Below, piece after piece: positions 37,619 through 52,367 of a DNA stretch of 64,000 nucleotides. The DNA is from Glaciihabitans arcticus (GTDB taxonomy: Bacteria; Actinomycetota; Actinomycetes; Actinomycetales; Microbacteriaceae), in assembly GCF_004310685.1 (NCBI RefSeq), contig NZ_SISG01000001.1:1426001-1490000 (forward strand). Direction: 5' to 3'. Positions within the stretch are counted from its first letter, which is position 1. The number at the start of each line of letters is the position of its first letter. The notes beneath the pieces are model-generated. The model did no database searches, had not been told where the DNA came from, and saw nothing but the letters and a program-made list of their open reading frames with translations. Both the position numbers and the translations under genes were made by a program.

Positions 37619-38578
37619 ATGACCCGATTCGGCTACACCCTGATGACCGAGCAGAGCGGCCCCCGAGAACTCGTCGGCTACGCCGTGGACGCCGAGCGGA
37701 TCGGATTCGACTTCGAGGTGTCGAGCGACCACTACTCGCCGTGGATCGTGGAGCAGGGTCACGCGCCGAACGCCTGGACACTCCTCGGTGCCGTGGCCCA
37801 GGCGACCGAACGCGTCGAGCTCGCGACCTTCGTGACCTGCCCGACGATGCGCTACCACCCGGCCGTCATCGCCCAGAGCGCGGCCACCCTCCAGCTGCTT
37901 TCGGAGGGCCGCTTCATCCTCGGCCTCGGATCGGGCGAGAACCTCAACGAGCACGTTATCGGCGAGGGCTGGCCGAGCGTCGCCGTTCGCCAGGACATGC
38001 TCGAGGAGGCGGTGACCATCATCCGCGAACTGCACACCGGAGAGTTGGTCACCTGGGAGGGCGAGTACTTCCGCGTCGACTCCGCACGCATCTGGGACAC
38101 GGCGGAGGTCGAGATCGGCCTCGCCGTCTCCGGTGAGCACAGCATCGAGCGCTTCGCACCGCTCGGCGACCACCTCATCGCGACGGCACCCGAGAAGGAA
38201 CTCGTCGACGGGTGGGACAAGGCGCACGGCGGAACGTCGCGCAAGATCGGGCAAATCCCGATCTGCTGGGATCCGAGCGAGGAGGCGGCCATCGCCAAGG
38301 CCCACGACCAGTTCCGCTGGTTCGGCGGCGGCTGGGCCGTGAACGCCGACCTGCCGACCCCGGCGGGCTTCGAGGGTGCGAGCCAGTTCGTCCGCCCCGA
38401 GGACGTCGCCGAGGCGATCGTCTGCGGCCCGGATCTCGACAAGATCGCAGAGAGTTTCCGCGCTTTCATCGACGCGGGCTTCACCGACGTCGCCCTCGTG
38501 CAGGTCGGCGACGAAGGGCAGCAGCGTTTCCTCGACGAAGCCGCCGCACCGTTGCTCGAGAAGCTCCGCGCGCTGTAG
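37619..38578 (+). CDS. F420-dependent LLM-class oxidoreductase, TIGR03557/FGD-like
   Basis: 319 residues. TIM-barrel luciferase-like protein: MTRFGYTLMTEQSGP, FEVSSDHYSPW (His for F420 hydride transfer region), TCPTMRYHPAVIAQSAATL, LGLGSGENLNEHVIG, and WAVNADLPTPAGF. These are the features of the F420-dependent glucose-6-phosphate-dehydrogenase-like family TIGR03557. The actual substrate is not established for most members. Implies that the organism makes coenzyme F420. Confidence 0.88.
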   Translation: MTRFGYTLMTEQSGPRELVGYAVDAERIGFDFEVSSDHYSPWIVEQGHAPNAWTLLGAVAQATERVELATFVTCPTMRYHPAVIAQSAATLQLLSEGRFILGLGSGENLNEHVIGEGWPSVAVRQDMLEEAVTIIRELHTGELVTWEGEYFRVDSARIWDTAEVEIGLAVSGEHSIERFAPLGDHLIATAPEKELVDGWDKAHGGTSRKIGQIPICWDPSEEAAIAKAHDQFRWFGGGWAVNADLPTPAGFEGASQFVRPEDVAEAIVCGPDLDKIAESFRAFIDAGFTDVALVQVGDEGQQRFLDEAAAPLLEKLRAL

Positions 38579-38596
38579 AGCGATTATTCTCGAAAG

Positions 38597-39091
38597 GTGA
38601 AGCCGCTCTCCGAGTCCCAGATCCGCGACAGCATCGTCAACGCGACCCGCGGTGAGATCGACCGGATGCCCCTCCCCGGGCTTCACGAGGTGATGTGGGA
38701 CAGCCGCGAATACCTCGGCTGGCGCGACCCGCAGGCGCCTCAGCGCGGCTACCTGGTCCACTGGAGCGGGGATCTCCCGGTCGGCATCATGCTGCGCGCC
38801 TCGGAGATTCAGCTTTCCCCCGGCATCACGGCAATGTGCGCGCTCTGCCGCACCACCCAGCCATCTGACCAGGTGCGGATGTTCTCCGCGGCGAAAGCGG
38901 GGGCATCCGGTCGCAATGGCAACTCGATCGGCACCTACATCTGCGACGACCTGGCCTGCTCCCTCATCATCCGCATCACCCCGCCCGCGCAGCCGCTGCA
39001 GCCCGACCCGGCGACGCTCGTGGCGTCGCGCGCGGCCGGGCTGCTCGAGCGCGTGTCGGCATTCACGGCCGACATCCTGAAGACGGCGTAG
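38597..39091 (+). CDS. FBP-domain protein (FusB/FusC-type EF-G-binding zinc finger)
   Basis: 164 residues. C-terminal treble-clef zinc finger with CALC and CDDLACS (Cys pairs about 75 residues into the fold), and RMFSAAKAG / NSIGTYICDD, as in the FBP domain of fusidic-acid resistance proteins that release EF-G from ribosomes. Homologues in actinobacteria are stand-alone and not proven to give resistance. Starts at a GTG 18 bases after the F420 oxidoreductase stop with GAAAGG before it, so probably co-transcribed. Confidence 0.88.
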   Translation: MKPLSESQIRDSIVNATRGEIDRMPLPGLHEVMWDSREYLGWRDPQAPQRGYLVHWSGDLPVGIMLRASEIQLSPGITAMCALCRTTQPSDQVRMFSAAKAGASGRNGNSIGTYICDDLACSLIIRITPPAQPLQPDPATLVASRAAGLLERVSAFTADILKTA

Positions 39092-39107
39092 CCTCGGCTG
39101 TTCGAGG

Positions 39108-39440
39108 TCAGTCTTCTCGATCGCCCCAGAATTCCCGGATGGCGACGAGGCCATTGCGTGCCATGGGGTGCGCCGCAGCCACCGCTATCGCCTCTTCGCG
39201 ATCCGCCGCCTCGATCACGTCGAAGCCGACGATCCACTCCTTGGCCTCGGCGAACGGGCCGTCGGTCACGAGCACCTCGCCACCGCGTTTGCGCACTATG
39301 GTCGACTCGTCGGCGAGCCGATCGCCGAGAATGCGCCTTCCGCGCGAGTCATTGTCGGTCACCCACTCGTCGATGTTGTCGAGGGCGGGGTCATAGGGTT
39401 CGGCGTCGGGGGCGGTGCCGATGAACAACAGGAATTTCAT
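39108..39440 (-). CDS. YciI-family (DGPF-type) protein
   Basis: 110 residues. Ferredoxin-like YciI/DGPF fold: MKFLLFIGTAPDA, then VLVTDGPFAEAKEWIVGFDVIEA with the defining DGPF, and AAAHPMARNGLVAIREFW with the conserved His. In related genomes such genes sit beside ECF sigma factors; none is here. Role unknown. An AAGGAGAAAG site precedes the ATG. Confidence 0.88.
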   Translation of the reverse strand: MKFLLFIGTAPDAEPYDPALDNIDEWVTDNDSRGRRILGDRLADESTIVRKRGGEVLVTDGPFAEAKEWIVGFDVIEAADREEAIAVAAAHPMARNGLVAIREFWGDRED

Positions 39441-39576
39441 GTCTTTCTCCTTCGGTAGTGGAACCGTACACAGGGTCGTCGTTCGGCGTCACGCGTTTTC
39501 GACACTCGCGCCGCACAAACCTCCCGGTCTGCTGAACCCCCTGTTGCGCGGCGTCCGGCCTGCCTAGCGTCGAAGC

Positions 39577-40059
39577 ATGAGCGAATCAGAAGACATCGAC
39601 ATCATCCGCACCATCATCTCGGGATCGCACATCGCCGTGCTGACCACGGTGAGCGAGGGCGGCGAGCTGCACAGCCGACCGCTCGGCGTTCTCGACGGCG
39701 AGTTCGAGGGATCCGTGTGGTTCTTCACCCAGGACCCGAGCGGCAAGACCGCAGACGTCTCGACCGACCCGCAGGTCAACGTGTCGTACACCGACGGTAA
39801 GAGCTACCTCTCCATTGCCGGCACCGCCGCCGTCGAACACAATGACACCCGCATCGACCAGTTGTGGTCGCCCGCCGTCGGGGCGTGGTTCCCCGACGGC
39901 AAGGACGACCCGACCCTGGCTCTTCTGCGAGTGGATGCCACGAGCGCCCAGTTCTGGGCGATCGACAAGCCGGCCGTGGTGCGGTTCTTCGAGATCGCGA
40001 AGGGCATCGTCACGAAGGAGCAGCCCGACGTGGGAACGAATCGCGCCGTCGACCTCTAG
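39577..40059 (+). CDS. Pyridoxamine 5'-phosphate oxidase-like flavoprotein (general-stress type)
   Basis: 160 residues. Split-barrel FMN-binding fold: IISGSHIAVLTTVSEGGELHSRPL, VWFFTQDPSGKTADV, VNVSYTDGKSYLSIAGTA and LWSPAVGAWFPDG, as in the Gsp26/PF16242 group. It probably binds FMN or F420; the true substrate is not known. The stop overlaps that of yidC in a CTAG tetramer on opposite strands. Confidence 0.88.
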   Translation: MSESEDIDIIRTIISGSHIAVLTTVSEGGELHSRPLGVLDGEFEGSVWFFTQDPSGKTADVSTDPQVNVSYTDGKSYLSIAGTAAVEHNDTRIDQLWSPAVGAWFPDGKDDPTLALLRVDATSAQFWAIDKPAVVRFFEIAKGIVTKEQPDVGTNRAVDL

Positions 40060-40829
40060 ACCTGGACCCCGGCATCCTTCGGCGCGAGCACGCGTCGGAG
40101 GATGCTGCGTTCCACCAGGGTCCAGGTGGTCGTCACGGTGAGGTACAGGGTCGCGGCGAGCGGCACCACTCCGGCGAACAGCACCGTGAGGAACGGGAGC
40201 CAGCTGAGCCAGGCGCCGAGGAGCTTCATCCTCTCGGCGCCGGGAGCTGTGGCATCCACCGGCTGATTCGCGGTGAAGCGCAAGGCCACGATGCGTGACA
40301 CCGCCGCAACCACGGCGATGACCGTGAGCAGCACGGCGAAGACGAGCGCACCCGGCAGGATGTCGGGTGCCGCCAGTTGCGCGAGCAGCGACGTGCCGAG
40401 CGACACACCGAAGAGCTCGTGGCCGAGCAGGTCGTTCGGATGCCCGTTGATGCTCGCCACGATGAACAGGCCGTAGACGATCGACACCACCGGAGCCTGC
40501 AGCAGCGCCGGGCCGATGCCCGCGAACGGCGAAGCGTTCTCCTCCTTATAGAGGGCGAGGGTCTTCTGCTGGAGGAGTTCGGGCTTGTCACGGTACTTGC
40601 GGGAGATCGCCTGCAGGCGGGGAGCCAGGCGACGCCGAGTGAATTCGGCGCGCACCTGCGAACGCCCGACAGGGATCAGCGCAGTTCTCACGATCAGGGT
40701 GAGGGCGACCACGGCGAGAGCAGCCGCGAAGGATCCGGCAAGTGGAGTGAAGAAGTCGATGAGTGCGGTCACGCCGGCGTAGGCCAGGTCGAGAACGGCG
40801 GCGACGGGGGCAAAGCTGTAGAAGTCCAT
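40056..40829 (-). CDS. YidC/Oxa1-family membrane insertase (second copy)
   Basis: 257 residues with five membrane helices. The conserved Arg of the hydrophilic groove is in LTLIVRTALIPVGRSQ. Typical loops: RRRLAPRLQAISRKYRD and YKEENASPFAGIGP. It inserts small membrane proteins. It is separate from the rnpA-yidC-jag locus (not in the window), so it is likely an accessory YidC. The start at 40827-40829 (MDFYSFAPVAAVLD) matches usual N-termini; an ATG 11 codons upstream is in frame. Confidence 0.88.
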   Translation of the reverse strand: MDFYSFAPVAAVLDLAYAGVTALIDFFTPLAGSFAAALAVVALTLIVRTALIPVGRSQVRAEFTRRRLAPRLQAISRKYRDKPELLQQKTLALYKEENASPFAGIGPALLQAPVVSIVYGLFIVASINGHPNDLLGHELFGVSLGTSLLAQLAAPDILPGALVFAVLLTVIAVVAAVSRIVALRFTANQPVDATAPGAERMKLLGAWLSWLPFLTVLFAGVVPLAATLYLTVTTTWTLVERSILRRVLAPKDAGVQV

Positions 40830-40898
40830 GAGTGTCCTTGGATCGAGGGAGAGGGTGGCCATTTAGCCACGGACTGCCCTCGAGGAAACTCGGGAGTC

Positions 40899-41201
40899 TT
40901 ACGCGGCCGCGTGGTCCCGTCCCGGAGCACGCGCGCGAACGCGACCCACGGTGTTCGGATGCTGCGGCTCGGGGGTCTCGAACAGCGACTGGCGGTGAGC
41001 GCGGGCCCGGCTGCCGACGGTGATGACGCGGCTGCGCACCATTGCCGAGGAGTAGCGTGCCGCGACGAGGGCCGCGAGCACCACCGCGCCGAGACCTGCT
41101 GCAAGAAGAGTGGCGGGCTCAGCGGTGCCGGCCTGCGCGATGACGAGCGCGACGAACGAGAGGGTCATCAGCATGACCAGTCTCGAGTGCAGCGTGCGCA
41201 T
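40899..41201 (-). CDS. Small DUF6412-like membrane protein
   Basis: 100 residues. N-terminal helix (about 8-28) and a second helix (about 30-52); then a basic, His/Pro/Arg-rich cytoplasmic tail (HPNTVGRVRARAPGRDHAA). The tail pattern and position just before a yidC copy fit DUF6412, as I recall it. Probably co-transcribed with that yidC, which starts 69 bases downstream. Function unknown; it may be a YidC client or partner. Confidence 0.65.
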   Translation of the reverse strand: MRTLHSRLVMLMTLSFVALVIAQAGTAEPATLLAAGLGAVVLAALVAARYSSAMVRSRVITVGSRARAHRQSLFETPEPQHPNTVGRVRARAPGRDHAAA

Positions 41202-41247
41202 GCTCCCAACTTACTCTTGACAGCCCCTCCACGCCGAGTACACTCAT

Positions 41248-41275
41248 AACCATTAAGTTCCAAAACCGATAGGTT
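41248..41275. promoter_or_regulatory. Tandem ArsR-type operators
   Basis: AACCATTAAGTT (41248-41259, one mismatch) and AACCGATAGGTT (41264-41275, perfect AACC/GGTT) are spaced 16 bases apart centre to centre. TAGGTT (41270-41275) can act as -10 and no ribosome site precedes the ATG at 41280, so the transcript may be leaderless. Confidence 0.55.
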
Positions 41276-41279
41276 ATAG

Positions 41280-41639
41280 ATGCCCACCGACCAGCTGTCC
41301 GGCGTTTTCGCCGCCCTCGCCGACCCCACCCGCCGCGCGATCCTGCAGCGCCTCAGCGAGGGCGACGCGAACGTCGCCGACCTCGCCGAACCGTTCGCGA
41401 TGAGCCAGCCCGCCGTCTCCAAACACCTGCGCGTGCTCGAGGGCGCCGGACTCATCTCGCGCAACCGGGTCGCGACTGCACGCTTCAGCCACCTCGAAGC
41501 CGAGCCCCTCAGGGAGGCGACCGAATACATGGAGAAGTACAAGCGCTTCTGGAATACGAACTTCGACCGCCTCGCGCAGGCCCTCGCCGAGTACCAGGAA
41601 CAGAATCCGTCCGAGAAAGAAGGAGAGAGCCATGACTGA
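41280..41639 (+). CDS. ArsR-family transcriptional regulator
   Basis: 119 residues. Winged HTH: FAALADPTRRAILQRLSEG, VADLAEPFAMSQPAVSKHL (recognition helix) and LEGAGLISRNRVA. There is no metal-binding Cys pair, so it belongs to the metal-free group often paired with SRPBCC genes. Two AACC-N4-GGTT-type sites overlap its promoter. First gene of a three-gene operon, with an 8-base overlap into the next. Confidence 0.9.
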   Translation: MPTDQLSGVFAALADPTRRAILQRLSEGDANVADLAEPFAMSQPAVSKHLRVLEGAGLISRNRVATARFSHLEAEPLREATEYMEKYKRFWNTNFDRLAQALAEYQEQNPSEKEGESHD

Positions 41640-42108
41640 CATCACCCCCGAGGTCACCGATCGCGACGTCTACATCACCCGCAGCTTCAACGCGCCGCGT
41701 GAGCTGGTGTGGAAGTTCTGGACCCAGCCCGAGCACCTCGCGAGCTGGTTCGGTCCCACCGAAACGACGACACCGGTCGAGACGATCTCCATCTCGCTCG
41801 AAGAAGGAGGCTCCTGGAACCTGGCGATGCGGGACAACGCCACCGGCGACCTGTATCCGATGAACACCCGTTTTGTCACGATTCGGGAACCCGAGTACCT
41901 CGAGATGATCATCGACTCCGCGGATACCAACGGACTCGGCACGCTCGAACGGCTCCGCCTGCGCGTGACCTTTCACGACCACGGCGACAAGACCCGCATC
42001 ACCCTGCACCAGGGGCCCTTCACCGACGAGCAGAAGCAGCAGACCGCGACCGGCTGGGAGCAGTCCTTCGTCAAGCTCGACGCGATCTTCGCCGGGGCCG
42101 CCTCGTGA
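41632..42108 (+). CDS. SRPBCC / AHSA1-family protein
   Basis: 158 residues. START-like lipid-binding fold: VYITRSFNAPRELVWKFWTQPEHLASWFGP, ILEEGGSWNLAMRDNATG-type middle and KTRITLHQGPFTDEQKQQ. Such proteins bind small hydrophobic ligands and are commonly partnered with ArsR repressors; ligand unknown. It overlaps the ArsR gene by 8 bases and the hydrolase by 4 bases. Confidence 0.9.
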   Translation: MTDITPEVTDRDVYITRSFNAPRELVWKFWTQPEHLASWFGPTETTTPVETISISLEEGGSWNLAMRDNATGDLYPMNTRFVTIREPEYLEMIIDSADTNGLGTLERLRLRVTFHDHGDKTRITLHQGPFTDEQKQQTATGWEQSFVKLDAIFAGAAS

Positions 42109-42914
42109 ACGCCATCACCGCAACGGAGTTCGTCACGTCTGCCGACGGCACGCGCATCGCGTTCGAGCGCACGGGCTCGGGCCCGGCACTCGTGCTCGTC
42201 GACGGCGCGATGTGCTACCGCGAGTTCGGTCCCGCTCGATCCGTTGCGGCAGAGCTCGCGGACGGTTACACCGTCTACTTCTATGACCGCAGGGGGCGCG
42301 GCGAGAGTGGTGACACCTCGCCCTACTCCGTGCAGCGCGAGATCGAGGATCTCCGTGCGGTCATCGACGCGACCGGCGAGGTCCCGTTCGTGATGGGCCA
42401 GTCCTCGGGTGCCGCGCTCGTTCTCGAAGCGGCGGCCTCCGGTGTGCCGATGCGGAAGCTCGCGGCATACGAGTCGCCGTTCGTCGGCCTTCGCCCCGAC
42501 AAGGACGGCCATCCGCGCGACTATCTCGCGCAGCTCGACGGACTGCTCGCCCGCGGAGATCGCGGCGGCGCGGTCGGCTACTTCATGGTCGACATGGTGG
42601 GCGCTCCCCGGTTCGTTCCCTTGATGATGCGGATGATGCCGAAGGTGTGGAAGCAGCTGCAGGCCGTCGCCCACACCGTGCCGAACGACGCGCGCGTCAT
42701 GGGTTCGAGCTTCGAGGTTCCCACCGAGCGGTTCAGCACGATCGGCACCCCGAGCCTCATCATGGGCGGCAGCAAGAGCAAGACGGAGATGCTCACGGCG
42801 CAGGAGAGGATCGCTGGCGCCATCCCCGGCGCGAAGCACGAGGTGCTCGCCGGGCAGACCCACCAGGTCTCACCGAAGGCGCTCGCGCCTCAGCTGCGCG
42901 CCTTCTTCGTCTGA
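42105..42914 (+). CDS. Alpha/beta hydrolase
   Basis: 269 residues. GTG start overlapping the SRPBCC stop. GSGPALVLVDGAM, DRRGRGESGDTSPY, nucleophile elbow MGQSSGAAL (Ser near residue 100), catalytic His in GQTHQVSPKAL. The acid residue is less clear. Enzyme type (esterase, lipase or epoxide hydrolase) not decided by sequence. Third gene of the ArsR operon, so ligand-controlled. Confidence 0.85.
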   Translation: MNAITATEFVTSADGTRIAFERTGSGPALVLVDGAMCYREFGPARSVAAELADGYTVYFYDRRGRGESGDTSPYSVQREIEDLRAVIDATGEVPFVMGQSSGAALVLEAAASGVPMRKLAAYESPFVGLRPDKDGHPRDYLAQLDGLLARGDRGGAVGYFMVDMVGAPRFVPLMMRMMPKVWKQLQAVAHTVPNDARVMGSSFEVPTERFSTIGTPSLIMGGSKSKTEMLTAQERIAGAIPGAKHEVLAGQTHQVSPKALAPQLRAFFV

Positions 42915-42954
42915 GCGTTTGCCCGGCCTCCCGCGCGCGGTGCAAAGATGGAGC

Positions 42955-43710
42955 GTGACTTCATCTCGCGCCGCGCGCGGCTTCGCCCGTGCCGCCCTCG
43001 CCCTGCTCCTCGTTGTCGTGCTCGCCGCCGTCGCGTTCCTCGTGTGGGCGCACATGGTGATGCCGGGCGACCGCGATCGCGCGCTCGAGGTGTGGCGCAA
43101 CGACGACGTCGTGGTGACCTCGACCGACCAATCAATCGTGCTGTCGCCGAAGAGTGGCGGCATCACCACCGGACTGGTCTTCATTCCCGGCGCGAAGGTC
43201 GATCCATATTCATACATGTTCACATTGTCGGGTGTCGTCGTCGAGCGCGGGATTACCGTGGTCATCACCAAGCCTGCACTCAACCTCGCTTTCTTCGATC
43301 TGCACAGCTTCGACGACTATGCGGCAGACGCTCCGGGCATCGATAGGTGGTTCGTCGGCGGCCACTCCCTCGGCGGAGTGCGCGCGTGCCAGCTCGCCGG
43401 CGAGGGTGACAGCGCTGACTCGAATCTGGTCGGCCTGGTGCTGTTCGGCAGCTACTGCGCGAACGACCTTTCGAACACCGATCTGAACGTGCTCAGTTTG
43501 GCTGCGAGCAACGATGGCCTCAGCAGCGCGAATAAGATTTCGGATGCCGCGGGGCTCCTCCCCCGCGACGCCAGGTTCATCGAGCTCGAGGGAGCGAACC
43601 ACGCTTCCTTCGGCGACTACGGCGTGCAGCCCGGGGATGGCGAAGCCGAGATCGACAGCGATGCGGCACGCCGCCTGATCACGAACGCACTGAGCGCCAT
43701 CGTCGACTGA
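42955..43710 (+). CDS. Membrane-anchored alpha/beta hydrolase (fold 5)
   Basis: 251 residues. One N-terminal membrane helix (about 10-33, ALALLLVVVLAAVAFLVWAHM), then an extracellular alpha/beta hydrolase: LVFIPGAKVDPYSYM, nucleophile elbow FVGGHSLGGVRACQL, and the C-terminal catalytic His in LEGANHASFGDYG. Matches the Abhydrolase_5 group. GTG start at 42955 chosen; the upstream TTG is unlikely. Substrate unknown. Confidence 0.82.
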   Translation: MTSSRAARGFARAALALLLVVVLAAVAFLVWAHMVMPGDRDRALEVWRNDDVVVTSTDQSIVLSPKSGGITTGLVFIPGAKVDPYSYMFTLSGVVVERGITVVITKPALNLAFFDLHSFDDYAADAPGIDRWFVGGHSLGGVRACQLAGEGDSADSNLVGLVLFGSYCANDLSNTDLNVLSLAASNDGLSSANKISDAAGLLPRDARFIELEGANHASFGDYGVQPGDGEAEIDSDAARRLITNALSAIVD

Positions 43711-43824
43711 AATCTTTTCTGTATTTTCGCAACGAATTTTCACATTAAACCCCTTAGGGGGTAGACAGGGCTGACTGACGAGGCGTAGCGTTCCCGTAAC
43801 TGATTCGTCGAGGGGGTGACGAGG

Positions 43825-44658
43825 GTGACCGTAGCGTTAGAACGCAAGGGTGTTCGACTCCTCCTCATCGCGCCCGCAGCGATAGCCCTCGGCTTCGCTC
43901 TCAGCGGGTTCTTCTCCGGTTCCGCCCAGGCGTCCGAACCCGTCGAAACCCCCGATAAAGGCGGACTTTCCGCGGTTCTCGGCGGCGCTACGGGCCTGAT
44001 TACGAATGTCGTGACGAACACCACGAGCACCGTCTCGGGCGTCACGTCGGCCGCCACCAATGTCGTTGCTACAGTGGTCAGCCCGCCGCCGCAGAAGCCT
44101 GTCAAGGCGATCGTGAAGTCAGTGGTCGCGGTCGTTCCGGTCGTCACCACCCACGTCGGCGATACGGTCGAAGACGTGCTCGTCGACACGGAAAGCACGG
44201 TTTCACCGGTCGTCCAGCCCATCGTCACCGAGGTGCTGAACCCGGTTCTCGACCCCATCCTCGACCCGGTGATCGAGATCCTCGACCCGGTCACCGATGT
44301 TCTCAACCCGGTCACCGACGGGGCTCTGCCTCGCGTTCTCGCGCCGGAATCCGCGGCGATCTCCCCCGCTTTCTCGGCATCGGCAGCAGCCGTCGCGACC
44401 GCCGAAACCCCCTCAGACGCTCCCGCCGACGCCGCTCGCGCCAGTGAGCCGACGCCTCTCGAGCAGCCCCTGACCGCACCAAACGTGCTGCTCAACCTGG
44501 GCGGTTTCGGCAATGGTTCTGCCGGTTCATCCAGTGCCCCACTAGCCGTTGTGCCCGCGTCGATCGTCGCCGCCCTGGCCCACGGATTCTCGACCACCCC
44601 GGAGAGCGACGACATCCCGTCGACTCCTGTCTTCTCCACAGACTCCTCCCCCGACTGA
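43825..44658 (+). CDS. Secreted Val/Pro/Thr-rich low-complexity protein
   Basis: 277 residues. Signal peptide (about 1-40, ending near GSAQASE). The mature region is almost free of charged residues in places, with repeated VV, VLNPVLDPILDPVIEILDPV-like segments (three or four DP-V-L-N-P units), then an Ala/Ser/Pro-rich part. It has no cysteine. The protein precedes the chaplin-like gene and may belong to the same surface layer. The GTG at 43825 has AGGGGG eight bases before it; a GTG at 43816 is also in frame but lacks spacing. Function unknown. Confidence 0.7.
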   Translation: MTVALERKGVRLLLIAPAAIALGFALSGFFSGSAQASEPVETPDKGGLSAVLGGATGLITNVVTNTTSTVSGVTSAATNVVATVVSPPPQKPVKAIVKSVVAVVPVVTTHVGDTVEDVLVDTESTVSPVVQPIVTEVLNPVLDPILDPVIEILDPVTDVLNPVTDGALPRVLAPESAAISPAFSASAAAVATAETPSDAPADAARASEPTPLEQPLTAPNVLLNLGGFGNGSAGSSSAPLAVVPASIVAALAHGFSTTPESDDIPSTPVFSTDSSPD

Positions 44659-44698
44659 TGCGCCTTCCTGCCGTTCTGTGGCAGGCATCCAAGGCAAT

Positions 44699-44716
44699 GT
44701 CCGCGTAGTCGCGGAC
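44699..44716 (+). other. Hairpin in the leader of the chaplin-like gene
   Basis: GTCCGCG and CGCGGAC pair over TAGT, 32 bases before the ATG at 44748. A smaller hairpin (CTGCC/GGCAG, near 44669-44684) precedes it. No T-run follows, so a partial terminator or RNA-stability element is possible. Confidence 0.4.
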
Positions 44717-44747
44717 TTCACATCAATCAAATTATGGAGATCACACC

Positions 44748-46349
44748 ATGCGTAAATCAGTCTCTAGAGCGCTCTGGGGAGCGTTCTTCGTCGGGGGCCT
44801 CTCGCTCCTCGGCGTCGGTGCCGCACACGCGGACACCACGGGAGAGGACGGTGCCGTGTCCGGTAACCAGATCCTTCCGGTGCTCAATGTCCCGCTGACG
44901 CTGGGCGGCAACGCCATCAGCATCCTCGGCGATTCGAGCAGCTCATCATCCTCCACCCCGGCGCCCGCGCCGGCTGCTCCCGCCCCCGCCGCTCCCGCGG
45001 CACCGGCCAAGGCGCAGACCAGTGGCAAGGATTCGGTAGCCGGGGGCAACCAGGTGAACCCGGTTGTCTCGGTGCCGGTCAACCTCGGTGGCAACGCGAT
45101 CTCGGTGCTCGGCGACAGCCGCAGCTCCGGGTCGACGACGACCGCGACTCCCGCCCCGGCAGCAGCCGGCTCGGGCGCAACGACCTCGGGTGAGGATGGC
45201 GTGCTGGGTGGCACGCAGGTCCTCCCCGTGATCAGCAGTCCGGTCGCTCTGGGCGGTAACGCGATCTCGGTGCTCGGCGACAGCCGCAGCACCGGCTCGA
45301 CGACGACCAGCCCGGCAACTCCCACCAGCGGCACCGGAAACGGCGCCACCACCACCGGCGAGGACGGCGTGCTGGGTGGCACGCAGGTGCTGCCGAACAT
45401 CACCATCCCGGTCAACCTCGGCGGCAACGCCATCTCGGTTCTCGGCGACAGCCGCAGCACCGGATCCGCGACCAGCACCCCCACCACGACGGGCGGCACC
45501 GGCAACGGTGGCAGCACGAGTGGCGAGGACGGCACCGCGGGCGGCAACCAGGTCAGCCCCGCCGTCACCATCCCGGTGACCCTCGGCGGCAACGCCATCT
45601 CCGTGCTCGGCGACACCCGCACCAGCGGCTCGACGACGAGCACCCCCGCCACGACTGGCGGCACCGGTAGCGGCGCCACCACGAATGGTGAGGACGGCAT
45701 CGCCGGTGGCAACCAGGTGATTCCGGATGTCACGCTTCCCGTGACAGTCGGTGGAAACGCCATCTCCGTGATCGGCGACAGCAGCTCCGAGGGAGCGACT
45801 GTCACGACCCCGGGCTCCGGTGGATCGAGCGGAACAACTGAAACCGATGGTGCAGAGGGCATCCTTGGGGGGAATCAGGTTGTTCCGGTCATCACCCTTC
45901 CGATCACCATCGGCGGCAACGCCATCTCGGTGATCGGTGACTCGGAGACCGAGGACGGAACGTCGGGTGTCACGGACATCCCGACGGACCCCACGGACCC
46001 GGTCGACCCGACCGATCCCACGGACCCGACGGACCCGGTCGACCCGACCGATCCCACGGACCCGACCGATCCCACCAACCCCACCGACCCGACGGATCCC
46101 ACGGACCCGACGTTCCCCGGTGGCGGTAACACCAACACTCCGGTGAACCCCGGAGACGGAAACGGTACCAACGATGGCACCGACGGTGGCATCCTCGAGC
46201 CGTGCCTCGTGATCGATGCCGCTGCTGACATCGACACGGACACCAACACCGCGGGTGGCTTCGACCCGACCGCCGGAGCGCTGGGACTTCTCCTGCTCGC
46301 CGGTATCGGTCGCTTCGTCGCCGGACGCATCAAGCTCGGACTGCGCTAG
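44748..46349 (+). CDS. Secreted protein with seven chaplin-like repeats, Thr/Asp/Pro stalk and C-terminal anchor
   Basis: 533 residues. Signal peptide cleaved after AHA (residue 28). Seven repeats of about 55 residues follow, each with a hydrophobic core such as GGNQVNPVVSVPVNLGGNAISVLGDS; this is the chaplin pattern (PF03777-like), though the chaplin Cys pair is missing in all repeats. Linkers are Ser/Thr/Gly/Ala/Pro-rich. Then come DPT/DPV repeats (about 410-460) and a final region with one Cys (LEPCLVID) and a membrane helix (GALGLLLLAGIGRFVAG) ending in RIKLGLR. Chaplins form amphipathic amyloid surface layers in Streptomyces. A GGAGAT site precedes the ATG. Confidence 0.8.
   Translation: MRKSVSRALWGAFFVGGLSLLGVGAAHADTTGEDGAVSGNQILPVLNVPLTLGGNAISILGDSSSSSSSTPAPAPAAPAPAAPAAPAKAQTSGKDSVAGGNQVNPVVSVPVNLGGNAISVLGDSRSSGSTTTATPAPAAAGSGATTSGEDGVLGGTQVLPVISSPVALGGNAISVLGDSRSTGSTTTSPATPTSGTGNGATTTGEDGVLGGTQVLPNITIPVNLGGNAISVLGDSRSTGSATSTPTTTGGTGNGGSTSGEDGTAGGNQVSPAVTIPVTLGGNAISVLGDTRTSGSTTSTPATTGGTGSGATTNGEDGIAGGNQVIPDVTLPVTVGGNAISVIGDSSSEGATVTTPGSGGSSGTTETDGAEGILGGNQVVPVITLPITIGGNAISVIGDSETEDGTSGVTDIPTDPTDPVDPTDPTDPTDPVDPTDPTDPTDPTNPTDPTDPTDPTFPGGGNTNTPVNPGDGNGTNDGTDGGILEPCLVIDAAADIDTDTNTAGGFDPTAGALGLLLLAGIGRFVAGRIKLGLR
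44836..45950 (+). repeat. Seven tandem chaplin-like coding repeats
   Basis: The conserved core codons for GGNAIS begin at 44904, 45087, 45252, 45420, 45585, 45750 and 45912. Periods are 183, 165, 168, 165, 165 and 162 bases. Repeats 3 and 4 are nearly identical at the DNA level, suggesting recent duplication. Confidence 0.85.
45975..46112 (+). repeat. DPT/DPV codon repeat
   Basis: Nine-base units of the type GACCCGACC/GATCCCACG code for a Asp-Pro-Thr(Val) stalk. Perfect in frame, hence coding; length is likely to vary between strains. Confidence 0.8.
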
Positions 46350-46365
46350 CACCGAGTGACTGAAC

Positions 46366-46402
46366 GTCGGGTGTCGCCCGCTCCCACAGGGCGGCACCCG
46401 AC
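46366..46402. terminator. Strong hairpin between convergent genes
   Basis: GTCGGGTGTCGCCC pairs with GGGCGGCACCCGAC over a 9-base loop, one mismatch. It lies just after the chaplin-like gene and before the convergent PspC gene. No T-run on either side, so it may work as a bidirectional or factor-dependent terminator. Confidence 0.5.
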
Positions 46403-46417
46403 ATCGTCATGCCCGGG

Positions 46418-46630
46418 CTAGGCCTGGCGGGAGTCTGCGGGGATCAGGGCCCACATGGCGATGTAGATGATCACCTGGGGGCCGGGGATGAAGACGCTCG
46501 CAACGGTGAGCACGCGCACGACGGCGACGTTCCAGCCGAAGCGACGCGCGATGCCCGCACAGACACCGCCGATCATGCGACCGGAGGCGGGGCGGGTGAG
46601 GACGGGACGGGACTCAGTGGTTGTAGTCAT
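46418..46630 (-). CDS. PspC-domain small membrane protein
   Basis: 70 residues. PspC domain: RMIGGVCAGIARRFGWNVAVVRVL with the family motif, then one membrane helix (PQVIIYIAMWALIP). PspC-type proteins take part in envelope-stress signalling. Here it stands alone without PspA or a kinase. ATG at 46628-46630. Confidence 0.9.
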   Translation of the reverse strand: MTTTTESRPVLTRPASGRMIGGVCAGIARRFGWNVAVVRVLTVASVFIPGPQVIIYIAMWALIPADSRQA

Positions 46631-46694
46631 GACTCAAGCCTGACCGAGAGCGGATGCATCCTCTATCGGGGTAACCCCCGAAAGAACCCTGAGG

Positions 46695-48050
46695 TCACCA
46701 GCCGCGCGGGCCGTCTGATCCGGCGGCGTAGGTCTCGAGCGGAACGGCATCCTTTCGCCACGACGCGAGCACGGGGGCCACGATGCGCCAGCACTCCTCG
46801 GCGATGTCACCGCGCACCGACAGCGTGGGGTCGCCCTCGAGCAACCCCGCGAGAACCTCGCCGTAGGCGTTGAGCTCGCCGTCCATCAGTTCCGAGCGCA
46901 GCATCGTGCGGTCGAGCTGGAACGGGTCACCCTCGCCGTTGATGGTCAGGTCGAGTTCGAGCGTGGCCGGCTTCATCGAGATGCGCAGCTGCGAGGGTCC
47001 GGTCGGGCCGTGCAGGCCGATCGGCAGGTGCGGCACCTCGCGCAGGGTCACGTTGATCTCCTGCCGCGCCTCCCCCAGCGCCTTTCCCGAACGCAGGATG
47101 AACGGCACACCCGCCCAGCGCCAGTTGTCGATCGAGAGGGTCACCTCGGCGAGCGTCTCGGTCTGGCGCGCCGCGTCGACGCCGGCCTCTCTGGAGTAGG
47201 CGGGCAGCGAGCGGTCGCCGATCGTGCCGGCCGTGTAGCGGGCACGTCGGGATGACGTTCCGCTCCGCACCTTCGGGTGCGTGGCCCGCAGCACCTGCGC
47301 CATCGCCCCGCGCAGGTCCTCGGCGTCGACGCTCGCGGGCGGCTCCATAGCGGTGAGGGCCAGTACGAGAAGCAGGTGGCTCTGGATCATGTCGATCAGC
47401 GCACCGGCCTTGTCGTAGTACCCGGCGCGTCCTTCGAGGGCGAGCTGCTCGTCGAACACGATCTCCACCTTCTCGACGTTGGGTGCTGAGAGCAGCGGCT
47501 CGAAGATACGGTTCGCGAACCGCAGGCCGAGCAGGTTGAGCACCGTCGACTTGCCGAGGAAATGGTCCACGCGGAACACCTGCTCCTCCGGAACCAGGTG
47601 CTGCAGCGTGCGGTTGAGGGTTCTCGCGCTGGCCAGGTCGGTGCCGAACGGCTTCTCGAGCGCGAGAACGATTCCCTTCGGCACGGGCGTCTTGCGCATG
47701 GCCGCGCAGGCGAGCACGGCGACGGCGGGCGGCAGGGCGAAGTAAAGAGCGATGCGGCCGGTGGTCGCGGCGAACACCCTCGCCAGGTCGTCGGGGTTCG
47801 TGACATCCGCCTGCAGGTAGCGCGACTCGGCGGCCACCTTTGCGCCGAGTGTGGACGGGCTCGCGGCGAAGGCCGTGGCGACGCGTTCCGTCCAGGCCGC
47901 GTCGGTCATCGGATCCATGCCGACGCCGAGCACAGCGACCTCGGTGCCGCGCGGCGAGGCGAGCAGTGAGGCCAGCCCGGGAAGCAGCAGGCGCGCGGTG
48001 AGGTCCCCGCCCGCTCCGAGAATGACAAGCGTTTCGATGCGGTCGGTCAT
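46695..48050 (-). CDS. zwf: Glucose-6-phosphate dehydrogenase-family protein
   Basis: 451 residues. NADP-binding GAGGDLTARLLLPGL, substrate loop RVDHFLGKSTVLNLLGLRFAN (the active-site His-Phe-Leu-Gly-Lys), EKPFGTDLASA, and the C-terminal domain GEGDPFQLDRTMLRSEL. Catalyses glucose 6-phosphate to 6-phosphogluconolactone. It is about 50 residues shorter than the usual pentose-pathway enzyme and lacks the opcA-pgl-tal neighbours, so it may be a second, perhaps divergent copy. Confidence 0.85.
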   Translation of the reverse strand: MTDRIETLVILGAGGDLTARLLLPGLASLLASPRGTEVAVLGVGMDPMTDAAWTERVATAFAASPSTLGAKVAAESRYLQADVTNPDDLARVFAATTGRIALYFALPPAVAVLACAAMRKTPVPKGIVLALEKPFGTDLASARTLNRTLQHLVPEEQVFRVDHFLGKSTVLNLLGLRFANRIFEPLLSAPNVEKVEIVFDEQLALEGRAGYYDKAGALIDMIQSHLLLVLALTAMEPPASVDAEDLRGAMAQVLRATHPKVRSGTSSRRARYTAGTIGDRSLPAYSREAGVDAARQTETLAEVTLSIDNWRWAGVPFILRSGKALGEARQEINVTLREVPHLPIGLHGPTGPSQLRISMKPATLELDLTINGEGDPFQLDRTMLRSELMDGELNAYGEVLAGLLEGDPTLSVRGDIAEECWRIVAPVLASWRKDAVPLETYAAGSDGPRGW

Positions 48051-48073
48051 GCTGCCGAGGGTACTACTAGAGG

Positions 48074-48167
48074 CTGGTTGAGTAGCGCGCGACGAAGGAG
48101 CACGCGTATCGAAACCAGGTTGCGCACAACCGATTTCGATACGGCCGCGGGCGGCCTACTCAATCAG
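48074..48167. repeat. REP-like nested inverted repeat
   Basis: Outer arms CTGGTTGAGTAG (48074-48085) and CTACTCAATCAG (48156-48167), inner arms CGTATCGAAA (48105-48114) and TTTCGATACG (48134-48143), and a central GGTTG-CGCA-CAACC hairpin. The pattern CTACTCAAxCAG with CGTATCGAAA resembles dispersed elements of Microbacteriaceae (from memory). The right arm contains the TetR gene's stop codon. Confidence 0.7.
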
Positions 48168-48807
48168 CGGCTAATACAGCCCGAGCATGCCCATCGACCG
48201 CGTGCGCCAGGATCGCCTCGATCGCGAACGCCGTCGAGCGCGGCAGATTCACGGCCTCCGGGTCGAGCAGCCACTGGATCTGCAGTCCATCCATCACGGC
48301 GAGAACGACGGCCGCGGCGTCGTCGATCGCCTCCCGGTGAGGCGGGTCATCCCCCGCACACACCTCGGTGAGCGCCTGCTCGACCTCACTGCGCAGCTGC
48401 GTGTAGCGCGCGCGAAACCAGTCCTTGGCGGGATGCCCGTCGGTCACCGATTCGGCGGAGAGCACCGCGTACGCCTGCACGATTCCGGGGCGCTCGGCGT
48501 TGAGGGCAGCCGTCTTCGCGAGATGACGGAAGAGGTCGAGCCCGCCCGGGATGTGCCGACCCTCGAGGTGCTCCACGTCCGCGGCGTCGCGATAGACGAG
48601 CACGTCGAGCAGCAACTGGTCCTTGGAGCCGAAGTAGTGCAGCACCCCGGCCTGTGTGATGCCGACCTGCTCGGCGACGTCAGCGAGCGATCCGCCCTTG
48701 AAGCCCTTGCTGCCGAACGTGGCCAGCCCCGCCTTGATGATGTCCTCGCGGCGACGGATCGTACCCTCGCGCGGACGCTGCGGCTTGCGCGCCACGGGGT
48801 TAGTCAT
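48160..48807 (-). CDS. TetR-family regulator
   Basis: 215 residues. HTH at about 20-70 (REDIIKAGLATFGSKGFKGG, SLADVAEQVGITQAGVLHYFGSKDQLLLDVL). The C-terminal domain is helical (AVVLAVMDGLQIQWLLDPEAVNL), the pattern of the TetR_C_39-type subgroup near sugar-metabolism genes. It lies beside the G6PDH gene on the same strand. The last codons and stop lie in the REP-like repeat at 48074-48167. Confidence 0.85.
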   Translation of the reverse strand: MTNPVARKPQRPREGTIRRREDIIKAGLATFGSKGFKGGSLADVAEQVGITQAGVLHYFGSKDQLLLDVLVYRDAADVEHLEGRHIPGGLDLFRHLAKTAALNAERPGIVQAYAVLSAESVTDGHPAKDWFRARYTQLRSEVEQALTEVCAGDDPPHREAIDDAAAVVLAVMDGLQIQWLLDPEAVNLPRSTAFAIEAILAHAVDGHARAVLAAD

Positions 48808-48846
48808 GACTGAACACTACAACTCAGAGCTCTTCTGAGAATCGGG

Positions 48847-49281
48847 CTAGCGGGGCTCCAGCACGAACACCGGAATCTGGCGATCGGTCTTGGTCTGGTA
48901 GTCGGCGTAGGGCGGGTACGCCGCGACGGCGCGCTCCCACCAGGCGGCCTTCTCATCACCGGTGACCTCGCGGGCCGTGTAGTCCTTCGAGACGGGGCCG
49001 TCCTGCAGTTCGACGTGCGGGTTGGCGACGAGGTTGAAGTACCAGGTCGGGTGCTTCGGCGCTCCGCCGAGAGATGCCACAACGGCGTACTCGCCGTTGT
49101 ACTCGACGCGCATCAACGGGTTGATGCGCAGCTTGCCGCTCTTCGCTCCGATCGACTTGAGCAGGATGACCGGCATCCCCTTCAGGTCGGTTCCCTCGGT
49201 TCCGCCCGAGGCAAGGTAGGTCTCCGTCTGCTTGAGGGCCCAGGCAGAGGTTCCCGGTTCGTACTCGGCATCCAGCGGCAT
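48847..49281 (-). CDS. DDN-like nitroreductase-family deazaflavin-dependent oxidoreductase
   Basis: 144 residues. Split-barrel fold: [47 protein letters not shown] is split by family turns, with PHVELQDG and [16 protein letters not shown]. Features match the F420H2-dependent Ddn group that activates nitroimidazoles in mycobacteria. Together with the protein at 37619 it points to an F420-producing organism. ATG at 49279-49281. Confidence 0.9.
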
Positions 49282-49440
49282 CCCGTATCTCCTTGTTGTG
49301 AAGTGTGATTTCGAGCCTACGCGGCACGCTCGCCTGACGCCGACCCCTGCGCAAAACGTAATTCGGTTTACGGCACCGCCGCACGCGCGTATCCTCGGGG
49401 GTAGTGAAGCCGCACGGGCTTCGGAGAGAAGGGAGTCTCA

Positions 49441-49554
49441 ATGGCAGACAAATCACCGAAGAAGTCCACCGCCAAGACCGCGGCGAGCAAGTCGCTCAAG
49501 GAAAAGCGTGCCGACAAGAAGGCCAAGTCGTCTTCTAAGAGCAACAGCGCCTAA
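49441..49554 (+). CDS. 37-residue Lys/Ser/Ala-rich small protein
   Basis: 37 residues (MADKSPKKSTAKTAASKSLK then EKRADKKAKSSSKSNSA). Twelve lysines make it very basic and probably disordered; it may bind nucleic acid or ribosomes. The strong ribosome site (AGAAGGGAG eight bases before the ATG), codon use and the following terminator show a real gene. Similar small basic proteins are found in Microbacteriaceae, as far as I recall, with no known role. Confidence 0.8.
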   Translation: MADKSPKKSTAKTAASKSLKEKRADKKAKSSSKSNSA

Positions 49555-49575
49555 GAGGTCTTCCACGGAGACTTA

Positions 49576-49605
49576 GAAGCCGGTCCCTCTCGAGGGGCCG
49601 GCTTC
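49576..49605 (+). terminator. Terminator of the small Lys-rich gene
   Basis: GAAGCCGG(TCCCTC) pairs with (GGGG)CCGGCTTC over TCGA. The T-run is short (ACTCGTT), so it may depend on the GC-rich stem. Confidence 0.6.
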
Positions 49606-49645
49606 ACTCGTTAAGCGACCTCAGGATTCGAGCTATCATCGCGTT

Positions 49646-49930
49646 ATGGATCTCTCCTTCGAAGTCGGCGACAAAGAATTCCACGATGTTCTCTTTCAGT
49701 TCGACAAGGTCTGGGGAGGCCTGAACATCTACGTCGACGGTGAGTCCATCATCAAGACCGTGCGCTTCGCGTCGCTTAGCCTCGTCAAGACCTGGGAGTT
49801 CGAAGTCGGCGAGACCGAGAAGCACAAGGTGAAGATCGAGAAGCACCGCGCCCTGATGTTCGCGGGCTTCCGTCCGCAGCCGGTCCACGCTTTCGTGGAC
49901 GGCAAACACGTCGCGAGTGGCATCGCCTAG
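49646..49930 (+). CDS. Small conserved-type protein, unknown (94 aa)
   Basis: 94 residues. Beta-rich: MDLSFEVGDKEFHDVLFQFD, IYVDGESIIKTVRFASLSL, WEFEVGETEKHKVKIEKH and VHAFVDGKHVASGIA. Resembles a small immunoglobulin-like or beta-sandwich fold; no signal peptide. Not recognised. It precedes the acyltransferase gene by 13 bases, likely the same transcript. Confidence 0.7.
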   Translation: MDLSFEVGDKEFHDVLFQFDKVWGGLNIYVDGESIIKTVRFASLSLVKTWEFEVGETEKHKVKIEKHRALMFAGFRPQPVHAFVDGKHVASGIA

Positions 49931-49943
49931 CTAAGGTGTCTGC

Positions 49944-51245
49944 ATGACGAGCACCGGCGCTCCCCGTCCCTCCAGCATCGACATCTCGGCGAGGGACCTC
50001 ACGCTCGACCTCGCGCGCGTGGTGTGCGTGCTGCTCGTGGTCGTCATCCATTTGCTGATGGTCGGCGTCGGCGCGGGGCCGGAAGGGCTCGTCGTCTCGC
50101 GCCCGCTCGAGTTCCAGCCGTGGTTCGCGGCGGCCACCTGGGTGGGCCAGATCATGCCGCTGTTCTTCGTGGTCGGCGGCTTCGCGAGCATGACCGCGTG
50201 GCGCAGTGCGCGTCGTCGCGGAGGCACGGCGAGTGACTACGTGCGCAACCGAGTGCTGCGTCTCGCCCAGCCCGCCCTGCCGCTATTCGTGTTCTACGCG
50301 GTGGCGCTCGGCGGCGCGACACTGCTCGGCATCGACCCCGAGCTGCTTGATCTGGTCGCGAAGAGCGCGGGGCTGCCGCTCTGGTTCCTCGCCGCGTACA
50401 CGCTCTGCCAGGCCTTCGTTCCGTTCATGGCGGGATGCCACGAGCGCTCGCCCCGACTCACTCTCGTCGCGCTGCTCGCCGGTGTGATCCTCGTGGACAC
50501 CGTACGTTTCACCACAGGCATCACCGAGCTCGGCCTTCTGAACCTGTTCTTCGTCTGGCTGCTCGTGCAGCAGCTCGGCTTCTGGTACGCCGACGGCTGG
50601 TTCGCGGCCCGCAACGGATGGCAGCTGTTCGGCATCGCCGCTCTCGCGTACCTGCTGCTTGCCGCGGTCACCCTCCCCGAGGGCTGGTACTCGAACGACA
50701 TGCTCTCGAACCTCAACCCGCCGACGCTGCCGCTTGTGCTGCTCGCCGTCGCGCAGGCCTGCATCCTGCGAGCGCTGCGGCCGGCACTCGCCCGGCTGAT
50801 GGACACCCACTGGGCGCGCGCCGTGGTGTTCCTCGTCGGCACGCGCCTTATGACGATCTACCTCTGGCACCTGCCGCTGATCATCGCGCTGAGCGGCGTC
50901 GCGCTGCTCATCCCGGGCGCCGCGCCGCTGCCCGATTCGCCCGGCTGGTGGATGTCCCGGCCCATCCTCTTCGTGATCGTGCTGGTCGCCCTGTTCGGGT
51001 TGTCATTCCTCGTCGGTCGCTGGGAGGCCCCGCGCGAGGTCGGGCCGACTCCCCCACCAGTCGTGGTGGGTGTCGCGGCGGTGCTCGCGTTCCTGCCCGC
51101 GCTGCTCGTGCTGCAGTTCTTCCTCGACCTGCAGCTCGCGATCGTGGGAGCTGTGCTGCTCGGGGTTGCCGTGATGGTGCTCGGGCGGTGGAAGCCGCTA
51201 CGTGATATCCACGCGCCGGCCGGTGCCGACCTCCGTGGAGTCTGA
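49944..51245 (+). CDS. Membrane acyltransferase (acyltransferase 3 family)
   Basis: 433 residues with about ten to twelve membrane helices. N-terminal LDLARVVCVLLVVVIHLLMV with the catalytic His of the family (about residue 36), then GQIMPLFFVVGGFASMTAW and Arg-rich RNRVLRLAQPALPLF. Transfers acyl groups to carbohydrate or lipid acceptors at the membrane; acceptor unknown. Its last 48 bases overlap the convergent 51198 gene. Confidence 0.85.
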   Translation: MTSTGAPRPSSIDISARDLTLDLARVVCVLLVVVIHLLMVGVGAGPEGLVVSRPLEFQPWFAAATWVGQIMPLFFVVGGFASMTAWRSARRRGGTASDYVRNRVLRLAQPALPLFVFYAVALGGATLLGIDPELLDLVAKSAGLPLWFLAAYTLCQAFVPFMAGCHERSPRLTLVALLAGVILVDTVRFTTGITELGLLNLFFVWLLVQQLGFWYADGWFAARNGWQLFGIAALAYLLLAAVTLPEGWYSNDMLSNLNPPTLPLVLLAVAQACILRALRPALARLMDTHWARAVVFLVGTRLMTIYLWHLPLIIALSGVALLIPGAAPLPDSPGWWMSRPILFVIVLVALFGLSFLVGRWEAPREVGPTPPPVVVGVAAVLAFLPALLVLQFFLDLQLAIVGAVLLGVAVMVLGRWKPLRDIHAPAGADLRGV

Positions 51246-51521
51246 ATCGGTCACGATCGCGAACACGCCCGAGGGCACACCGGAGCGGGTGGCCAGGTTG
51301 CCGGCGGCGGACAGCACACCCGCTTCATCCTCGCCGGTTAGGAACCAGACGTAGTGGTCACCGACCTCTTCGCTGTCGTCATAGCTGTCGGCGTCTCCGT
51401 CTTCGATGAGCTCTTCGAGGGCCTCGGTGATGTCGTCGATCCACGGGAACTTGTACTCGCCCTCCGTCACGTCGGGATCGGGTTCGAGCGGTACGTGCAG
51501 TTCGATGACGAGTTCGGGCAT
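51198..51521 (-). CDS. Acidic protein of unknown function (107 aa)
   Basis: 107 residues, pI very low (EALEELIEDGDADSYDDSEEVGD). N-terminal MPELVIELHVPLEPDPD, middle FLTGEDEAGVLSAAG and a C-terminal ATRSGVPSGVFAIVTDSDS. Looks like an alpha/beta (ferredoxin-like) protein of unknown role. ATG at 51519-51521. It shares 48 bases with the acyltransferase gene. Confidence 0.65.
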   Translation of the reverse strand: MPELVIELHVPLEPDPDVTEGEYKFPWIDDITEALEELIEDGDADSYDDSEEVGDHYVWFLTGEDEAGVLSAAGNLATRSGVPSGVFAIVTDSDSTEVGTGRRVDIT

Positions 51522-51569
51522 GGTTACATCCTGCCGCACTCGTGCAGGGTGATGCGCTAGACCTGTCAC

Positions 51570-52367
51570 ATGGCCTCCCCCGTCGACGACATCGTGCGCG
51601 AGCTGTACGCGCTGCTGCCGGCCGAGTTCACCGCCGCGCGCAATGCCGCGGCGAAGGAGCACCCGAGCGTGAAGGCTCTGCCGAAGCCATCGGCGAGCGC
51701 CTGGCTCGTCAACATGCTCGCCCGGCACGAGCGCGACACTGTCGAGGGGTTGGTCGACCTGGGCGACCGGCTGCGCGATGCCCAGTTCGACCGGCAGGCC
51801 GCGACCGCCCTCTCGAGGCAGCGGCGCGACAGCCTGCGCGATGCCCGCAAAATCGCCACGACTCTCGCCAAGCGTCTCGGCGGCACGGCATCGGCTGCCG
51901 CCCTGGACGAGGTCGAGCAGACCCTCATCGCCGCCATGTCTGATCGGGATGCAGCGGCCGCCGTCCTCGCCGGAACCCTCGTCACGCCGCTCACCGCCAA
52001 CGGGCTCGACCCGGTCGACCTCTCGGGTGCGACCGCACTCGACCCGCCCGCGCTGACACAGCGAGTGGCGAAGAAGGGCCCCGACCTCAAGCGTGCCGTC
52101 GATGAGGCGCAGTCCGACGTGACGGAAGCGGAAGCCGCCGTGGCGGAAATCGACCGGAGCCTGGCCGAGGCGAAGCGCAGCCGCGACGCCCTGCAGCAGG
52201 AGCGCGAGGAACTCGCCGCCCAACTCGCTTCAGTCGACCAGGAGCTGTCGGAGACCGAGACGCGCATCCGCGACCTGCGCCGCGAACACGGCTCGGCCGA
52301 GCGCGAACGTCGCAGCGGCGAGACCGCCCTCGAGCGTGCGACCCGGCGGTGGCAGGCGCATGACTGA
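51570..52367 (+). CDS. Coiled-coil protein, unknown
   Basis: 265 residues. Helical throughout: N-terminal VDDIVRELYALLPAEFTAARNAA and LPKPSASAWLVNML, then a long heptad coiled coil from about 175 to the end (DLKRAVDEAQSDVTEAEAAV and following). The family is widespread in actinobacteria but of unknown function (from memory). The stop overlaps the next ATG by 8 bases. Confidence 0.75.
   Translation: MASPVDDIVRELYALLPAEFTAARNAAAKEHPSVKALPKPSASAWLVNMLARHERDTVEGLVDLGDRLRDAQFDRQAATALSRQRRDSLRDARKIATTLAKRLGGTASAAALDEVEQTLIAAMSDRDAAAAVLAGTLVTPLTANGLDPVDLSGATALDPPALTQRVAKKGPDLKRAVDEAQSDVTEAEAAVAEIDRSLAEAKRSRDALQQEREELAAQLASVDQELSETETRIRDLRREHGSAERERRSGETALERATRRWQAHD

Follow-up and report, generated by a model that had tools for sequence, protein, structure and literature searches.

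Chaplins, which carry a water-repellent module coating the aerial filaments of Streptomyces, have been studied chiefly for their part in aerial growth there, and a role for them where there are no aerial hyphae has only been suggested, namely attachment, as a function possibly older than aerial growth (PMC4255298, in the accessible part of its text). What, then, would a protein with seven chaplin-like repeats do in Glaciihabitans arcticus, a member of the Microbacteriaceae? The gene that raises this question occupies 44748-46349 on the + strand of a 64,000-nucleotide stretch of contig NZ_SISG01000001.1 (the window, from whose first letter all positions are counted) and is a protein-coding open reading frame of 533 amino acids, which an earlier note had described as a seven-repeat, cysteine-free chaplin relative carried on an anchored stalk.

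The protein begins with a predicted signal peptide (residues 1-28; 44748-44831, +) that closes with the cleavage-type sequence AHA; the call was made by inspection, without a dedicated predictor, and from an alignment of 24 proteins in which M1, L9, G17, G22, A26 and A28 are invariant, and the N-terminus is thereby predicted to be of the export type that the earlier note had presupposed, in line with the secretion signal of long chaplins. It is followed by seven repeat cores (44841-44933, 45024-45116, 45189-45281, 45357-45449, 45522-45614, 45687-45779 and 45849-45941, all +) lying 54-61 residues apart (61, 55, 56, 55, 55 and 54 from the first to the seventh), which bears out the period of about 55 residues first reported; Tandem Repeats Finder gives a 165-base period at 45075-45782. 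The cores mostly take the form GEDGxxGG(N/T)Qx7Px3GGNAIS(V/I)(L/I)GD; six linkers join them, each 23-30 residues long and rich in G, S, T, A and P. Beyond the repeats come the DPT/DPV-rich stalk that had been recognised before (45978-46111, +; tandem repeats of 18-36 bases) and a C-terminal hydrophobic helix with a basic tail and no recognisable LAXTG ahead of it (46266-46334, +; residues 507-529 of the structure model), the hydrophobic segment reaching a Kyte-Doolittle value of 1.61 over 19 residues. The sole cysteine of the chain, residue 486, lies outside the repeats, which are thus as free of this residue as had been claimed. Directly after the stop codon, an inverted repeat that was read by eye and does not figure in the output of the motif scan (46366-46402) has a GC-rich stem and no T run and is possibly a terminator.

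Against the Pfam chaplin profile PF03777, the whole protein scores 81.5 bits over seven stretches (E=3.8e-23), above the curated cut-off of 21 bits and hence within the chaplin superfamily. Searched singly, all seven repeats match, at 19.4, 24.6, 14.6, 22.7, 24.0, 22.4 and 23.6 bits from first to last, with five over the cut-off and the first and third under it (scored within the whole genome, four of the seven are singly over it). Since every repeat matches and none of three residue-shuffled versions of the repeat region does (three of the nine generated were searched), the relation to chaplins, which the earlier note had made dependent on the repeats scoring better than random, is not an effect of composition. 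The NCBIfam search assigned the window protein to no family, and a search of solved structures up to E=1 returned a single match, a DOG-repeat peptide aligned with the stalk (E=0.017).

Comparison of the cores with one another gives a mean pN of 0.21 and a mean pS of 0.51, with pN below pS in all 21 pairs, which fits cores kept by selection. Hydrophobic and polar residues alternate along their first strand: in a test on a 7-residue segment picked after the pattern had been seen, at most 4% of shuffles attain the observed moment in six of the seven repeats, and in repeat 3 the figure is 12%, which does not distinguish that strand from its shuffles.

Several marks of the canonical chaplin domain are absent. 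According to the accessible texts, that domain has three GN motifs, 12-13 residues apart (PMC13251363), and exceptions to its canonical pair of cysteines are ChpE (PMC3079736) and the C-terminal domain of ChpB (PMC13251363). In the window protein, none of the seven repeats has a cysteine; the turn GGN is found in all seven cores and the first GN in five of them (TQ in the other two), and the list of cores and linkers holds no third GN in register. When the repeats are searched singly, the match runs no further than profile position 45-48 (45-53 in the whole-genome scan) of 57, so that the last part of the chaplin domain is either missing or diverged; in L058, a presumed Streptomyces chaplin, the second cysteine and the third GN fall within this last part of the profile, and both are absent from the window repeats. 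The number of domains is seven, compared with two in long chaplins. Because the cysteines, the third GN, the domain number and the LAXTG pentapeptide were all looked for and all deviate, the protein is not assigned as a canonical long chaplin.

The window protein is nevertheless a member of a widespread family. PF03777 matches at E<=0.01 were obtained in 66 of 249 sampled Microbacteriaceae genomes, and a profile of the signal peptide plus first repeat, some of whose 24 rows come from Microbacteriaceae genomes themselves, has matches in 81 of 248 such genomes and 32 of 85 genera; by eye count, 72 of the 81 have a match at E<=1e-16, and several genomes among the remainder have just one match, a weak one. 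The E-value of the window protein itself against this profile (6.1e-31) is that of one of the profile's own rows. In an order-wide sample, 42 of 297 genomes match, of which we count 28 outside the Microbacteriaceae, and with relatives spread through its own and other families of the order the window protein is therefore no single oddity. Named relatives from one genome scan comprise three Herbiconiux loci (L009-L011; 45-52% identity over the best segment) and, at 34-37% identity, loci of Sinosporangium, Acrocarpospora, Actinomadura (two), Nonomuraea, Sphaerisporangium and Actinorugispora. The survey of repeat number proposed in the earlier note yields 4-9 repeats per protein in 32 family proteins, one per genome (the window's and 31 others, L025-L055), some of them cut at the end of their stretch.

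All 223 repeats of these 32 proteins are without cysteine, in a sample biased to good matches, the 31 others being for the most part the top scorers among the 65 family genomes, besides the window's, that match PF03777. At 14 of 18 loci from other families of the order repeat matches were found (none at L098, L099, L100 and L102), and 12 of the 14 are cysteine-free in every repeat found, L090 and L104 being cut or partial. Elsewhere the residue appears in varying measure: two cysteines in the last repeat only of Herbiconiux L009 and L010; cysteines in the last two repeats of L101, from another family of the order; three cysteine-free repeats followed by six with cysteine in L105 (G538:C1:411000-415500), which also has an LASTG motif; cysteines in 41 of 47 repeats of six proteins (L012-L017) from Sinosporangium, Acrocarpospora, Actinomadura, Nonomuraea and Sphaerisporangium, all six with a cysteine-free first repeat; and cysteines in all four repeats of Actinorugispora L018. 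The five genera of L012-L017 are sporulating and mycelial. As expected, the presumed Streptomyces long chaplins L068 and L087 have two cysteine-bearing domains each, and LAHTG or LAQTG. Judged by these sequences, cysteine-free and cysteine-bearing chaplin modules look like one continuum, in which the mixed protein L105 is a possible intermediate for ordering the gain or loss of cysteine.

At the C-terminus the earlier note had placed a membrane helix. A hydrophobic helix is indeed present, and it is the better predicted of the two helices in the model (blocks of pLDDT 82 and 78); that it is a plain membrane anchor is less clear, since it lies where relatives have a sortase motif. In 19 of the 20 other complete family proteins, LAxTG or LPxTG lies 33-51 residues before the C-terminal end and is followed by a hydrophobic stretch and basic residues, the 21 complete C-termini (the window's included) having been picked by reading and proteins cut at the stretch end excluded; three of the excluded proteins (L028, L042 and L048) show a sorting motif as well. 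Three genus mates carry LASTG, LASTG and LAATG. The window protein and L029 have the helix without LA/PxTG, and the motif is missing near the end of five of the six proteins L012-L017. The hydrophobic stretch and basic tail of a long chaplin are thus found in the window protein without the pentapeptide, and the helix appears to lie at the site of a sorting signal with a lost or altered pentapeptide. A motif hidden by a frameshift was rejected, as the three forward frames of 46101-46700 contain no LAXTG.

LAXTG is recognised by SrtE enzymes, which anchor ChpC (PMC5148588, accessible part), and its absence leaves surface attachment of the window protein unsupported. One gene of the genome scores as a class E sortase, at 211 bits where the cut-off is 160, and another, sortase-like, is over the Pfam sortase cut-off but below those of the NCBIfam classes. 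A class E sortase is found in 80 of the 81 genomes positive for the N-terminal profile (lists compared by eye; the exception is G072) and also in 143 of 167 profile-negative ones, and since, in addition, many sortase-negative genomes are small, the association is confounded and co-occurrence was dropped as evidence.

The setting of the gene was examined on both sides. Directly upstream, 43816-44658 (+) encodes a secreted-looking, Val/Pro-rich protein of 280 amino acids with a 21-base tandem repeat at 44257-44318. This gene belongs to no Pfam or NCBIfam family and was rejected as an operon partner, being unmatched in five genus mates (two of them less than 90% complete) and matched weakly (E=9.4e-5, 34%) at a single locus, from Herbiconiux; it is also the only one of 14 neighbour genes (37619-52367) with any match in loci L009-L018 and L025-L027. 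An upstream RNA switch was discarded because there is no Rfam match in 43500-46600; on 11 related loci Rfam reported two tRNAs only, and a scan for sigma-70-type promoters found none. In two genus mates, L025 and L026, a tRNA gene (4286-4367 and 4495-4576, respectively) precedes the repeat gene by about 1.2-1.5 kb, with flanks partly common to both; there is no tRNA near the window's copy.

No match to the SsgA profile was found in this genome or in either of the two genus mates searched, with all four positive-control genomes, from families with chaplins, returning one. On this absence, SsgA being the sole sporulation gene examined, the source bacterium is probably non-sporulating, as had been supposed. 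The accompanying view that chaplins belong to sporulating Streptomyces stands less well: chaplin-like genes of Arthrobacter chlorophenolicus, a non-sporulator, are already mentioned in print (PMC4255298, accessible part).

The best reading of the protein, which we put at a probability of about 0.55 and whose functional side we infer, is an amphipathic coat or adhesin made of repeats, held at the surface and sufficient by itself. The gene product would be a secreted chaplin relative, tethered to the surface, that carries a strand-turn-strand amphipathic module seven times on one chain and is free of disulfides. Once exported, the chain would be retained at the surface, in LAXTG-bearing relatives through wall linkage by SrtE and here by another linkage or by the helix itself, with the DPT stalk crossing the wall and the amphipathic array displayed outside, as the earlier note envisaged. 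On their flexible G/S/T-rich linkers, the repeats might then stack, or associate between neighbouring molecules, to give a layer that is cross-beta, hydrophobic or adhesive. Since each chain has many modules and the genome contains no further PF03777 match above the cut-off, the array could polymerise by itself and would then not tether short chaplins but form the polymer; disulfides need not enter into this, since chaplin fibrils assemble in vitro without them (PMC3079736, accessible part). The likely use would be attachment, aggregation or drying tolerance, and not aerial growth.

Structure prediction does little to define such a layer. The AlphaFold2 model of the full protein has a mean pLDDT of 50.3, with blocks of 69-82 in the repeat cores and the C-terminal helix only, and that of five repeats a mean of 46.2; a Foldseek search with the full-protein model gave no PDB match at E<=0.001. 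Low pLDDT and the lack of a Foldseek match leave a cross-beta or stacked array without structural support, and because the models do not settle the fold, a plain repeat adhesin, rather unlikely in our estimate, stays a serious rival. According to this alternative, the repeats would fold as beta domains, either independent or solenoid-like, and from their stalk would bind a surface or a glycan without polymerising. It draws on the stalk, the sortase-type tail of the relatives and their repeat number of 4-9, stalk, sortase-type tail and variable repeat number being typical of Gram-positive adhesins, as well as on the regular set of short strands that the low-confidence models place in each repeat. 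The non-significant Foldseek list is apparently rich in proteins that we take to be beta-helical, but with query TM-scores of 0.05-0.10 for the matches listed it carries no weight, and the fit of every repeat to the profile of chaplins, whose studied members polymerise, speaks against an adhesin of the ordinary kind.

A further alternative, which we consider distinctly improbable, is that the protein is a tether on whose repeats a separate secreted partner docks, as is thought for ChpA-C and short chaplins, the co-assembly of short chaplins with long-chaplin domains being thought to hold the layer in place (PMC5618241, accessible part). The genome does encode a small, secreted-looking, GN-rich protein (L007, 1369-1863, - strand; G000:C1 near 2870262) that is a possible partner or remote relative; at 19.2 bits, however, its PF03777 match is below the cut-off, leaving the window protein with the only one above it, and this match spans profile positions 19-57 only, with no NCBIfam family over cut-off. 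Least probable is a decaying relict, a long chaplin on its way to losing function, which the absence of a sorting motif present in three genus mates might suggest, for the reading frame is intact, the seven cores are well kept with pN below pS throughout, and the helices without LA/PxTG in L029 and in five of L012-L017 mean that this absence need not signify decay.

Because its relatives share the design, the window protein is a real variant of a known coat protein, and one that has been little described. A cysteine-free chaplin domain as such is not new, given ChpE (PMC3079736, accessible part); for a cysteine-free multi-repeat form, no description was found in the open literature searched, which consisted mostly of titles and abstracts and had subscription papers largely outside its scope. 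We tentatively extend the proposal, with less confidence than for the window protein itself, to non-sporulating Actinobacteria of the order, which may possess a self-sufficient, one-protein chaplin coat, in which a cysteine-free array of several modules on a single surface-linked chain would polymerise with no need of short chaplins, rodlins or disulfides. If this is true, chaplins would have a role in attachment or in tolerance of drying that does not depend on aerial growth and is perhaps the older of the two. A single-gene, cysteine-free version in a probable non-sporulator would make the suggested role of chaplins outside aerial growth testable by one deletion, and the repeat array would offer a tandem-repeat template for amphipathic coatings.

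Set beside known systems, the protein has in common with the long chaplins ChpA-C of Streptomyces coelicolor a secretion signal, PF03777 modules and a hydrophobic stretch with a basic tail, in a genome that likewise encodes a class E sortase; unlike them, it has seven modules instead of two, no cysteine in any, no third GN and no LAXTG, and unlike S. coelicolor its genome has no short chaplin over the PF03777 cut-off. The short chaplin ChpE resembles the window repeats in being a module without the two cysteines but, according to the accessible text, consists of one such module, has no anchor and acts beside other Streptomyces chaplins (PMC3079736). The proteins L012-L017 agree with the window protein in their signal-peptide-like start, their 7-8 repeats of a related core and their hydrophobic C-terminus with a basic tail, and differ from it in the two cysteines of most repeats and in having no long DPT stalk. 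The Herbiconiux proteins (L009-L011) and the family proteins L025-L055 share the design of the window protein, down to a DPT-type stalk resembling its own in several of them.
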